Assembly: GCA_016195025.1 (NCBI GenBank)
Contig: JACQAL010000060.1
Span: 1-64,000, forward strand
Length of the DNA stretch: 64,000 bases
From: Bacteroidota bacterium
Lineage (GTDB): Bacteria > Bacteroidota > Bacteroidia > Palsa-948
Direction: 5' to 3'
The notes beneath the pieces are model-generated. The model saw only the letters and a program-made list of their open reading frames with translations. It was not told the origin of the DNA and did no database searches. Below are positions 25,858-62,522 of this stretch, one piece after another. How positions within the stretch are numbered: the first letter of the stretch is position 1; every line of letters begins with the position of its first letter. Position numbers and translations under genes: made by a program.

Positions 25858-26052
25858 GAGAATGGTTTTAGTTGGAAGAAAAGAGTACGCGAGGTTTTAC
25901 GGCAGTTGAAAGAAAAGGTTTCAGAAAAAGAAAGAAAAAAATTAACTGCTCCTTCTCCGCGCGGTTAACATTTTTTAACAGAACGTTTGCAATAAACTTC
26001 CTCCTGCTGCCGTTGCAGTATTTAAAAAAGAACCGCATGCGGCAAAATTACC

Positions 26053-26406
26053 ATGCAAGTGCAATTAACATTCAAAGACAAAGACGGCTTTCCGTTCTTC
26101 CGCGATGGCGCAGATGTGTGCTGGGCGCAGCCCGCACGAAGAAAGTGCATCCTCCATTTTAAAAACGGGGAAGCGCTTGTGTACGGGCATCCGTTAAACT
26201 ATTTTCATAAAAAGAAAGTATGGGCTCTCAATCTCTTCAGGCGGTTCGACAAGTTTTTACTGCTGAACATTTCGCAGCTTGCAAACGGCAAGTGGCTTTT
26301 TGCCCTGCTGAAGAACGGAAAAATGCTTCCCCTCACCCGCAGCGGAAGCAAAAAGTTGAAACGCTATCTCCTCAGGCATAAAAACAGCGAAGGCGGCAAC
26401 CCATAG
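26053..26406 (+). CDS. Small LytTR-like DNA-binding protein
   Basis: A 117-residue protein. Its last two thirds resemble a lone LytTR DNA-binding domain: KCILHFKNGEALVYGHPL, then FDKFLLLNISQL, then LKNGKMLPLTRSGSKKLKRYL. This parallels the LytTR pattern hLxdGxxhhVrxsL / FhRIHrSyLINL / LxnGxxhPVSRrxxkxL. There is no receiver domain, sensor or membrane segment. The 195 bp upstream hold no clear promoter. Just 39 bp downstream begins a 21-bp tandem array, a period close to the distance between paired LytTR half-sites. Family assignment is by pattern and moderate. Confidence 0.55.
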   Translation: MQVQLTFKDKDGFPFFRDGADVCWAQPARRKCILHFKNGEALVYGHPLNYFHKKKVWALNLFRRFDKFLLLNISQLANGKWLFALLKNGKMLPLTRSGSKKLKRYLLRHKNSEGGNP

Positions 26407-26445
26407 CCCGCGCTTCTGCATTCCGCTGCCGCGCACCTGCGCACC

Positions 26446-26802
26446 GTTACCTGTAATGCGGTGCGCGTGAGCTGTAACCTGCATCCCGTAACGTGTAACA
26501 GGGTGCGGATGACGCATAACCTGCATCCCGTGACAGGTAACGCGGTACAGGTAACGCATAATGTGGTGCGCGTGACGTGTAACAGGGTACAGGTGACGTG
26601 TAGTGTGGTACAGGTGACGTGTAATATGGTACAGGTGACGTGTAGTGTGGTACAGGTGACGTGTCGCCTGCATCCCGTAACCTGTAATGTGGTACGGATG
26701 ACGTGTCACCTGCATCCCGTTACAGGTAACGCGGTACAGGTAACGCGTAATGTGGTGCGCGTGACGTGTAATGTGGTACAGGTGACGTGTCACTTGTTAC
26801 AC
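26446..26802. repeat. Tandem array, 17 units of exactly 21 bp
   Basis: Seventeen consecutive units of exactly 21 bp, none with a gap, have the core GTGACGTGTAATGTGGTAC and a variable second half of two types, GTGGTACAG or CTGCATCCC. The first unit starts GTTACCTGTAATG. Some units are nearly self-complementary to others (GTTACCTG and CAGGTAAC). The period is a multiple of three, so several frames stay open on both strands. None has an ATG-led start or other coding features. The region 26407-26962 otherwise holds only the 20-bp triplet below. Confidence 0.85.
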
Positions 26803-26820
26803 TTTCATCGTCCCGTGATG

Positions 26821-26880
26821 TGCAGTTGGGGATATACGTATGCCGTTGGGGATATAAAGGTGCAATGGGGGATATAAACG
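26821..26880. repeat. Three 20-bp repeats after the 21-bp array
   Basis: Three units with a 20-bp period share the core TTGGGGATATA or TGGGGGATATA (TGCAGTTGGGG, TGCCGTTGGGG, TGCAATGGGGG starts). They lie between the 21-bp array and the gene at 26963. The function is unknown. They could be operator-like direct repeats for that gene. Confidence 0.65.
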
Positions 26881-26962: not shown

Positions 26963-27688
26963 ATGAAAAAGTTAATTTTTAAAGTAGCGATTCACAGAGA
27001 CCGCTACGGAAACCGCATCGTAATAATGATGGCGGTGGTATCAAAAACAAATGTAAAACGGGTGGGCGCTATTTTAAACCTGAAAAAAATCAGGAAGATT
27101 GGCGACTTCCAGAACAAGGCGAAACTGATTCGCACCTCCATGGTGGGCAATGCGTTTTTTCCTTCGCCTCCCATTTCGGTATCGAATGGCGGTGTGTTCG
27201 ACCTCGACATTCAGGCGCTGGATACTGCCGAAGTAACCGCGCAAACCAGAGCGAGGGGCACAGCCACCGCCCGCGATGTGGCAAAGCAAACCGTGCTGGA
27301 CGACATGCACACTTTGCAGGGCTACGTGCAAACCGTGGCGGATGCAACGCCTAAAAAAGCCCAGGAGATTGTGCTCGGTTCGGGCTTCAGCATGAAAATT
27401 GCCGCCCCGCGCGACAAGGATGACTTCATGGTGAAGAACACCAAAGTGAAAGGCACTATGAAGTTAACCGTAAATGTGAAAAAAGTTACGGGCGGCAGCA
27501 GGCGGGCGTTTTTCAAATGGCAAATCAGCACCGATGGAATTACGTTTACCGATTTGCCTTCCACCTTAAAAGGAAGCACGCTGGTGAGCGGGCTCACCAG
27601 AGGAACTACGTATTGGTTCCGCTTCTTAGTGGTGGCGAAAAATGGCGAAAGCGGCTGGAGCGCTGCCGTGAGCGAAATGAGCAACTGA
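26963..27688 (+). CDS. Protein with C-terminal fibronectin type III-like domain
   Basis: A 241-residue protein with no signal peptide. The N-terminal two thirds are basic and unassigned. The central part (residues about 75-130, DIQALDTAEVTAQTRARGTATARDVA) looks helical. The C-terminal 85 residues are fibronectin III-like, with FFKWQISTDGITFTDL, LVSGLTRGTTYWFRFLVVAKNG and GWSAAVSE. Similar proteins of about 200 residues occur in Bacteroidota without a known role. A strong intrinsic terminator follows. Confidence 0.7.
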   Translation: MKKLIFKVAIHRDRYGNRIVIMMAVVSKTNVKRVGAILNLKKIRKIGDFQNKAKLIRTSMVGNAFFPSPPISVSNGGVFDLDIQALDTAEVTAQTRARGTATARDVAKQTVLDDMHTLQGYVQTVADATPKKAQEIVLGSGFSMKIAAPRDKDDFMVKNTKVKGTMKLTVNVKKVTGGSRRAFFKWQISTDGITFTDLPSTLKGSTLVSGLTRGTTYWFRFLVVAKNGESGWSAAVSEMSN

Positions 27689-34846: not shown

Positions 34847-36646
34847 TTAGTGTAACAACGCCTTTGCTGAACCTCCTACACCGGTAGATTCAAGCCACAT
34901 TCCTATGGAACCTGCAGTACCGGTAGTGCCCCGTGCTTTTCCTGCAGTAGAAGATGTAGTTACTTGATATCCACGAATAGTTCCTGTGGCGGTTTGTACT
35001 GTTACAACTCCCAATATTGCAATACGTCCAACTGCACCGATTGCAATAGTTGCATCATAAACAATCCCAATTGCCTGGGAGGAACTTGCAGTTGTAGTTA
35101 CAGTAAATGCATTATCAGTTGTAGAACTAGAGATTACTATTTCACCGGCACTGCGGGTCGCACCGCTGACATTCTTAAGCCATACAGTTATTGGCTGATT
35201 GCCGGTTAGAGTGCCATCACCTAATCCTATGTCACCTCCAGCAACCTGAAGGGTGCTGGTAACAGTGGTAGTGCCTATTCCCACATTTGTACCTGTGTTA
35301 TATAAATTACTGGTTGCTGTCCATGCAGAACCATTGTAATAAAGCGTCTGCCCGGTTGTTCCCGTTGCCCCTATGTTGCCGGTAGCGCCTGTTGCTCCTG
35401 TTGGACCTGCTGCCCCAGTTGGACCTGCTGCCCCAGTTGGACCTGCAACGCCTGTTGCGCCATTCAAACCCGCAGCACCTGTTGCACCTATCGGACCAGT
35501 TGCACCCACCGCACCAGTTGCTCCATCTGCTCCTGTGGGTCCGGTTACTCCCATCGCGCCTGTAGCACCATCAGCACCTGTAGGACCAGTAATTCCCTGC
35601 GCGCCTGTGGCTCCGTCAGCGCCTGTTGGACCGGTTACTCCCATTGCACCAGTTGCTCCATCCGCTCCTGTAGGACCGGTTGCACCCATTGCACCCGTTG
35701 CTCCATTTGTTCCTGTGGGACCAGTTGCTCCCATTGCACCCGTTGCGCCATCCGCTCCTGTAGGACCTGTGACTCCCATTGCACCTGTTGCTCCATCCGC
35801 TCCTGTAGGACCTGTGACTCCCATTGCACCTGTTGCTCCATCCGCTCCTGTAGGACCTGTGACTCCCATTGCACCTGTTGCGCCATCCGCTCCTGTAGGA
35901 CCTGTGACTCCCATTGCACCCGTTGCGCCATCCGCTCCTGTAGGACCAGTTGCACCCATTGCACCCGTTGCGCCATCCGCTCCTGTAGGACCTGTGACTC
36001 CCATTGCACCTGTTGCGCCATCCGCTCCTGTAGGACCTGTGACTCCCATTGCACCTGTTGCTCCATCCGCTCCTGTGGGACCGGTTGCACCCATTGCACC
36101 CGTTGCGCCATCCGCGCCAGTAGGACCAGTAATTCCCTGAGCACCGGTTGCACCGTCAGCGCCAGAAGGTCCTGTTGGTCCAGTGGGACCTGTTGGTCCG
36201 CTAGCAGGACCAGTAGGACCTTGAGCACCTGTTGGACCCATCGGTCCTGTTGCACCATTTGCGGTATACAAAGCATATGGCACGCTTAACAATTGTGAAG
36301 CGCCCATGGAAACATATCCGCTTCCAAAGTCAACTTCTATTTCAATAAATTTATTTCCGCTGTTCCATGGAATAGTTAAAAAATTTCCGCTGACTACTGT
36401 GCCTGCTCCTATACTTAATGTTACCAACCCGAATTGATTAGTAAGCGCAGTTTGAGTTTCCTGGTATACAATAGGTCCCGCCTGCGTGTTATCGTGAATG
36501 GTTACACGAATGGGAAATGAAGTGTTGGCTATGGGATTTCCCGAAACATCGCGGATGACCGATTGGTACTTGAATGCCTGTGGCGCCTGTGCATTAGCGA
36601 TAACAGCAAGCAGCAAAAAAGAGAAAAGCAGTTTAAAAATTTTCAT
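34847..36646 (-). CDS. Collagen-like triplet-repeat surface protein
   Basis: A 599-residue exported protein. After the signal peptide (1-19), residues 20-130 form an N-terminal domain ending [16 protein letters not shown], as in many Bacteroidota collagen-like proteins. Residues 131 to about 435 are Gly-X-Y triplets, most in 15 copies of a 15-residue unit ([15 protein letters not shown]). A C-terminal domain of about 150 residues ([22 protein letters not shown] onward) looks like the phage-tail-like head found on such proteins. It is probably a surface fibre. It lies 18 bp downstream of the T9SS gene at 36665 and may be co-transcribed with it. Confidence 0.88.
35498..36172. repeat. 15 tandem copies of a 45-bp collagen-coding unit
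   Basis: Each 45-bp unit encodes 15 residues on the minus strand. Units differ by few bases, and the sixth triplet pair alternates AMGVT, AMGAT or AQGIT. Near identity at the DNA level points to recent expansion, so copy number probably varies between strains. Confidence 0.85.
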
Positions 36647-62084: not shown

Positions 62085-62522
62085 CTATTTCTTTTTCTTT
62101 GCAGTTGATTTTTTTGCTGCCGGTTTTTTTGCTGCCGGTTTTTTTGCTGCCGGTTTTTTTGCAGAAGTTTTCTTTGCTGCGGGCTTTGCCGTTTTTTTCG
62201 CAGCAGTTTTTTTCTCTGCCTTTTTTTCTTTATGCGCAGGTTCAACTGCCGGAACTTCAACAACAGGTTCAGAAACAATCTGCGGAACTTCTGCTGTGAT
62301 TCCTTCCACCACAGGTTGAACGGTTTCCACTACAGGAACAGTTTCCATCACCGGTTTTTTTACGATTGGTTCGGCAACTGCCTTTGGAAGTTCTTTTAAT
62401 GTTTTCACCTTGCGCGATGGCGCTGACGGTCGAATTGTTTTTGATTTTTTACGAGGACGAGTAACACCTGTGGTGCCTCTCCAAATTTTTCCTCTGCGCG
62501 AGCGGATATCACCTTTTCCCAT
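62085..62522 (-). CDS. Ribosomal protein THX (bS31) with long Lys/Ala/Pro-rich tail
   Basis: A 145-residue protein. Residues 1-26 (GKGDIRSRRGKIWRGTTGV then TRPRKKSK) match small-subunit protein THX, which in Thermus is only about 26 residues and sits in the head of the 30S subunit. The rest is unlike THX. Residues 28-90 are Pro/Val/Glu-rich, with repeated VVEVPAV-like words. Residues 90-145 are Lys/Ala repeats including three KKPAA units, like histone H1-type or PAKKA tails. The tail could bind rRNA or DNA. A TACATTCG element lies upstream. Confidence 0.8.
   Translation of the reverse strand: MGKGDIRSRRGKIWRGTTGVTRPRKKSKTIRPSAPSRKVKTLKELPKAVAEPIVKKPVMETVPVVETVQPVVEGITAEVPQIVSEPVVEVPAVEPAHKEKKAEKKTAAKKTAKPAAKKTSAKKPAAKKPAAKKPAAKKSTAKKKK

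Follow-up and report, generated by a model that had tools for sequence, protein, structure and literature searches.

A phased array between a LytTR gene and a helical-bundle–FN3 gene

We analyzed a 64-kb stretch of forward-strand DNA from a Bacteroidota bacterium (contig JACQAL010000060.1, positions 1 to 64,000; hereafter the window), in which a plus-strand gene for a 117-aa stand-alone LytTR DNA-binding protein (26053..26406) is followed by a tandem array of 21-bp units (26447..26803), a second short array (26826..26876, plus strand) and a plus-strand gene for a 241-aa cytoplasmic protein that combines a helical bundle with an FN3 domain (26963..27688). Direct reading of the LytTR gene leader (25938..26052, plus strand) reveals three TTAAC words at steps of 23 and 10 bp, a spacing kept in all three paralogs (window, C16 and C18), and this leader probably acts as a promoter/operator region.

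The long array is formed by 17 tandem, indel-free units of exactly 21 bp, as the first-pass annotation of this DNA had counted, and begins 40 bp after the stop codon of the LytTR gene rather than the 39 bp given there. Units match the consensus TGACGTGTAACGTGGTACAGG at 13–20 of 21 positions, and identity at lag 21 reaches 0.61, whereas 2,000 shuffles average 0.255 and do not exceed 0.334. Alternation of two unit types raises identity at lag 42 further still, to 0.74, and the two unit endings that had been noted earlier are thus real. Each unit also carries partial dyad symmetry and a weak 7-bp sub-period (identity 0.46 at lag 7 and 0.48 at lag 14), and an autocorrelation scan found no further lag-21 array anywhere in the 64-kb window. 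Past the 21-bp array, within the leader of the FN3-type gene, lie three copies of TTGGGGATATA at an exact 20-bp spacing (starts 26826, 26846 and 26866), an arrangement that none of 1,000 shuffles equaled in score. This second array had been overlooked in the first-pass annotation, as had the downstream gene and the many sister arrays elsewhere that are described below. The window's unit type recurs at two contig ends in the same genome, in one array that is 90% identical (C50, positions 27–200) and one that is 89% identical (C22, positions 137–173); the sequence covered around them contains neither a LytTR nor an FN3-type gene, and contigs may break at repeats of this type.

Searched on its own, the 117-aa protein scores 13.7 bits against the LytTR profile PF04397 (E 0.074, residues 20–106), below the cut-off of 22.6 bits, but the profile check suggested in the first-pass annotation succeeds at the level of the family: four of six close homologs scanned match PF04397 (best E 4.5e-9), the more distant paralogs C62 and C57 exceed the cut-off, and E values within the family fall to 1e-10. 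The fold predicted by AF2 for the window protein (pLDDT 87) matches the LytTR structures of ComE and AgrA (4cbv, 3d6w and 3bs1/4xqj) with E values of 2e-5 to 2e-4 and TM scores of 0.64–0.68 by query length. Profile matches among relatives and the predicted fold together identify the window protein as a stand-alone LytTR domain, and its 117 residues contain no N-terminal receiver domain, in agreement with the earlier reading of the product.

The model of the 241-aa protein (AF2 pLDDT 92) comprises a beta hairpin, a helical bundle (residues 46–139) and an FN3 domain (residues 143–240), and Foldseek matches are confined to the FN3 part. Inspection of sequence and model by eye revealed no signal peptide or membrane segment. 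PF00041 matches 45 of 98 members of the helical-bundle–FN3 family.

Phased repeats follow stand-alone LytTR genes in the genus

A search for the same gene-plus-array pair in related genomes, as proposed in the first-pass annotation, showed that phased repeats with a step of about 20–21 bp lie downstream of nine of nine readable stand-alone LytTR genes in the genus, comprising C60 and the paralogs C62, C16, C18, C57 and C51 in the window's own genome, C131 and C208 in genome G006 and C59 in genome G001. Full-length LytTR response regulators had no array within 1.5 kb (0 of 3). The C51 gene and these three negatives came from one Pfam search run after the idea was formed, and they constitute the independent part of the evidence because most of the other cases had prompted discovery of the pattern. 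The C208 array has a period of 41 bp, and short repeats at about 20 bp lie directly past the LytTR stop codon in C131, C208 and C59 (three repeats each) and in C16 (two repeats). In C51, four YTACACTTATT-type units spaced at 21 bp follow immediately after the stop codon of a 106-aa stand-alone LytTR gene on the reverse strand, and these units resemble published LytTR half-sites (PMC6193735); of the arrays compared with the half-site consensus, that of C51 approaches it most closely (TACACTTAT, p 0.057).

Published LytTR operators consist of 9-bp direct repeats separated mostly by 12 bp and sometimes by 11 or 13 bp, in which spacing is conserved and sequence only poorly so (PMC6193735), and the 21-bp step of the window array agrees with this geometry, as had been pointed out from the sequence. 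Direct repeats 20–22 bp apart are present in both the 21-bp array and the 3 × 20-bp element. The window locus thus shares with LytTR operators, including those of LytTR regulatory systems (LRS) and of ComE/AgrA regulators (PMC6193735), direct repeats 20–22 bp center to center, conservation of spacing over sequence and an adjacent LytTR gene that is likely autoregulatory. In contrast to the single pair of 9-bp repeats that lies directly upstream of the promoter in those operators, the arrays here reach 17 units, and the window array lies downstream of the regulator gene. The window array lacks the half-site consensus (for example ACCRCTTAY), a misfit already conceded in the first-pass annotation: a LytTR half-site matrix gave p 0.41 for the window array and p 0.93 for the 3 × 20-bp element, and across 86 arrays it showed no enrichment (mean z −0.26). 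Whereas an LRS encodes a membrane inhibitor in the same operon, no such membrane partner is encoded here and the next gene specifies the helical-bundle–FN3 protein. The LytTR paralogs C60 and C18 are 59% identical and adjoin unrelated arrays.

Private arrays accompany helical-bundle–FN3 genes across Bacteroidota

We collected 125 distinct genes of the helical-bundle–FN3 family, which has 14 matches to the window protein in its own genome and relatives that are patchy across the phylum. Arrays scored against shuffles occur at 97 of 123 FN3-type genes across Bacteroidota, 88 of them upstream and 9 only downstream. In the 600 bp upstream of 120 FN3-type genes, mean autocorrelation peaks only at 21, 42, 63, 84, 105 and 126 bp, with z values of 10–12.5. 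Most of the 97 arrays have no LytTR neighbor, and most of the loci read outside the genus lack an obvious regulator gene next to the array. LytTR loci are therefore one subset of a larger array class, as the departure of the units from the half-site consensus also indicates. The earlier proposal that the array may be an operator of the neighboring protein is partly supported: it agrees with all nine stand-alone LytTR genes, but the class extends well beyond LytTR, and arrays without the LytTR gene, which the first-pass annotation had named as grounds for refuting the proposal, are widespread. Single-domain regulators of XRE or LuxR type adjoin FN3-type genes that lack LytTR at four loci in the own genome (L045, L049, L050 and L226).

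Array sequence is nearly private to each locus. Among the roughly 97 arrays only 12 pairs show any similarity, despite FN3-type proteins that reach 70–98% identity, and at 70–80% protein identity the arrays are mostly unrelated. The own genome contains about 15 such arrays in 864 kb, with enrichment only at lags 21, 42 and 63; about half of them have an FN3-type or another small cytoplasmic gene as neighbor, and the others adjoin ordinary genes. One candidate locus (L219) was excluded from this count, as its lag-42 match is a lysine-rich coding repeat. At four own-genome loci (L202, L207, L208 and L216) arrays lie beside further small proteins, possibly distant relatives of the helical-bundle–FN3 family. 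No such phased array was present in samples of 140, 120 and 140 kb from three other genomes, two of which carry FN3-type genes, and the arrays are therefore not a general chromosome feature. Intergenic 21-bp arrays were likewise absent from about 120 kb of tiles from same-genus genomes without the FN3 family, where the sole lag-21 match is a low-complexity GCT/CCG-rich repeat.

Three origins or roles of the family were considered and dropped. Phage and plasmid collections gave no match to the one FN3-family protein searched, and a mobile-element origin was set aside; PADLOC gave no hit of weight for a role in defense; and PHROG tail-protein matches are confined to the FN3 part and hence provide no evidence for a phage origin.

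Array phasing is helical and units carry dyad symmetry

To define the spacing, we counted best-lag windows in 122 upstream regions with no preselection of arrays by lag. Lags of 21 bp (139 windows), 22 bp (12) and 20 bp (4) and of 42 bp (166), 44 bp (32) and 41 bp (17) dominate, whereas the frame-keeping lags of 18 (1), 24 (0), 39 (0) and 45 bp (1) are nearly absent. One-base drift is tolerated and three-base drift is not, the opposite of the pattern that coding repeats would show, and the phasing is thus helical and not codon-based. Comparison with column-permuted arrays, which have the identical period, further reveals dyad symmetry in excess of expectation across 86 arrays (mean z 1.8, Stouffer z 16.8), with arms 4–8 bp from the dyad center. 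The window array scores z 2.8–2.9 (p 0.005–0.015) in this comparison, and the LytTR subset is uneven, with clear dyads in C60, C18 and C208 and none in C16, C57 and C59. Arm mismatches show no excess of G-T (125) over A-C (149), and the symmetry therefore belongs to the DNA and not to one RNA strand.

Candidate readers and functions of the arrays

Together, these features suggest that spacing, and not sequence, is kept in rows of putative protein-binding sites. The reading we favor, which we hold tentatively at a little under an even chance, is that each array is a locus-specific, in-phase, multi-site operator for its own cassette and that the LytTR protein is the likely ligand at the window locus. 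Such a cassette would consist of a small DNA-binding protein, an array and a gene for a cytoplasmic helical-bundle–FN3 protein, with the array serving as a cis-acting row of putative protein sites two helical turns apart. We infer that a dimeric protein could load cooperatively along one face of the DNA, an arrangement in which spacing would stay at 20–22 bp and sequence would be free to change along with the partner. At the window locus, position and spacing point to the LytTR protein encoded upstream as the most likely ligand, and it may act on its own unit and on the downstream FN3-type gene; the position of the array is what suggests regulation as the outcome. Assignment of LytTR as the ligand is weakened by the consensus misfit, by the unrelated arrays beside similar paralogs and by the many arrays without LytTR. 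Counting against an operator more generally are the arrays beside ordinary genes, the C50 and C22 arrays without a LytTR or FN3-type gene nearby, and the lack of uniform dyad symmetry in the LytTR subset.

The cassettes with XRE or LuxR-type regulators would be in line with a general pairing of each private array with a single small regulator. With somewhat less confidence than in an operator for the window locus, we propose that these loci represent an undescribed class of Bacteroidota cassette, in which a helical-bundle–FN3 protein is paired with a private phased-dyad array that is replaced wholesale between close paralogs with its two-turn spacing retained. Each cassette would in this way possess its own DNA address, read by changing one-domain regulators (LytTR, XRE or LuxR-type) or by the cassette protein.

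An unlikely alternative is a sequence-independent structural element in which phased 21-bp units sum small bends into curved or wrappable DNA, to be exploited by supercoiling or by a general nucleoid protein, with no partner protein reading the sequence. A fixed period of 20–22 bp in units that are nearly all unrelated between loci, the scarcity of similar array pairs beside closely related FN3-type proteins and the occurrence of some arrays beside ordinary genes are all as expected of such an element. Curvature, however, does not require the dyad symmetry that the arrays show, a 10–11 bp sub-period is missing from the autocorrelation peaks, and phased arrays are absent from the samples of three other genomes.

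We consider it quite improbable that the array makes up most of a small gene for a heptapeptide-repeat protein, with 21 bp as seven codons. The window array has one stop-free plus-strand frame (26407..26877), which would encode hypothetical heptapeptide repeats of the type VTCNVVQ, and the other plus-strand frames are closed in most units. Within the genus, ATG-started frames with a coverage of at least 0.9 occur on the plus strand in 11 of 22 cases compared to 3 of 22 on the minus strand, and they start alike (for example MKTRVTYQ, MKTSATYK and MKTKMTYN). Against this reading, unit lengths include 20, 22 and 41 bp, which are not multiples of three, and 18 and 24 are nearly absent; synonymous change is not in excess among units, plus and minus frames are alike outside the genus (14 and 12 of 57), and in the window frame no ATG precedes the array and the first GTG is at position 26461. 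Stop-free frames outnumber those in column-permuted arrays (52 compared to 28.6), but we gave this no weight as coding evidence, since open frames are plentiful on the minus strand too and the permutation ignores dinucleotide bias. Neither triplet unit length nor synonymous bias was thus found, and the spacing, synonymous-bias and strand tests speak against heptapeptide coding as the general cause of the arrays. Small frames run before or through the arrays at five loci (L008, L023, L025, L040 and L054), and their similar starts, which include MKTEKNIV and MKTQATDT, hint at a conserved short leader ORF at some of these loci.

Neutral, satellite-like expansion, in which tandem duplication in loosely constrained intergenic DNA sets the 21-bp length through the duplication mechanism, is in our view also improbable, and marginally more so than coding. 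Fast and complete turnover between close paralogs and the solo arrays at contig ends would follow from it naturally, but the arrays have a specific location beside one gene family throughout the phylum (upstream in 88 of 123 cases and exclusively downstream in 9 others), intergenic 21-bp arrays are missing from the same-genus tiles without that family, and the 864 kb examined in the own genome show enrichment at 21 and its multiples alone. An RNA element in which transcribed repeated hairpins control the downstream gene is very improbable: many units contain inverted repeats and the window-array RNA folds better than shuffles, but it does so equally on each strand (z −2.4), and with G-T not favored over A-C there is therefore no sign of one selected RNA strand.

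Comparison with other tandem-repeat systems and significance

Iterons and plasmid centromere arrays are tandem sites about two helical turns apart on which proteins load cooperatively along one face of the DNA. The arrays described here are likewise rows of candidate sites about two turns apart; unlike those systems, they are chromosomal, have no replication-initiator or partition gene nearby and occur as many unrelated arrays per genome. Cyanobacterial short tandemly repeated repetitive sequences share a heptamer genome-wide, and they resemble the present arrays in being intergenic, tandem and numerous in each genome, as well as in the 7-bp sub-period of the window unit. In contrast to the cyanobacterial repeats, the arrays here nearly all differ from one another in sequence and share a constant 21-bp step. 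A pure 7-bp repeat of CAGAACC extends one 21-bp array in genome G006 (contig C173, positions ~814–968).

Open-access texts yielded no published account of 21-bp arrays or LytTR–FN3 pairs in Bacteroidota, and arrays in which the helical step alone is conserved have, to our knowledge, not been described; if private, fast-changing arrays form a shared class, that class would be new. An element that is free in sequence and fixed in spacing would escape motif searches and sequence alignment, which may explain why no description was found. The roughly 100 array examples provide natural material for testing to what extent a protein–DNA array is defined by its spacing alone, and they draw attention to an uncharacterized FN3 protein family that reaches 14 copies in a single genome. 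If small regulators bind these private arrays, the loci would provide a ready collection of regulator–operator pairs with changing specificity.

Two separate repeat arrays of other periods also occur in the window. One, at 35388–36151, has periods of 9, 18, 45 and 135 bp and a unit like GCACCTGTTGCGCCATCC, and probably encodes a Gly-X-Y-type repeat on the minus strand; the other, at 62094–62228, is a 15/30-bp array of TTTTTTTGCTGCCGG.
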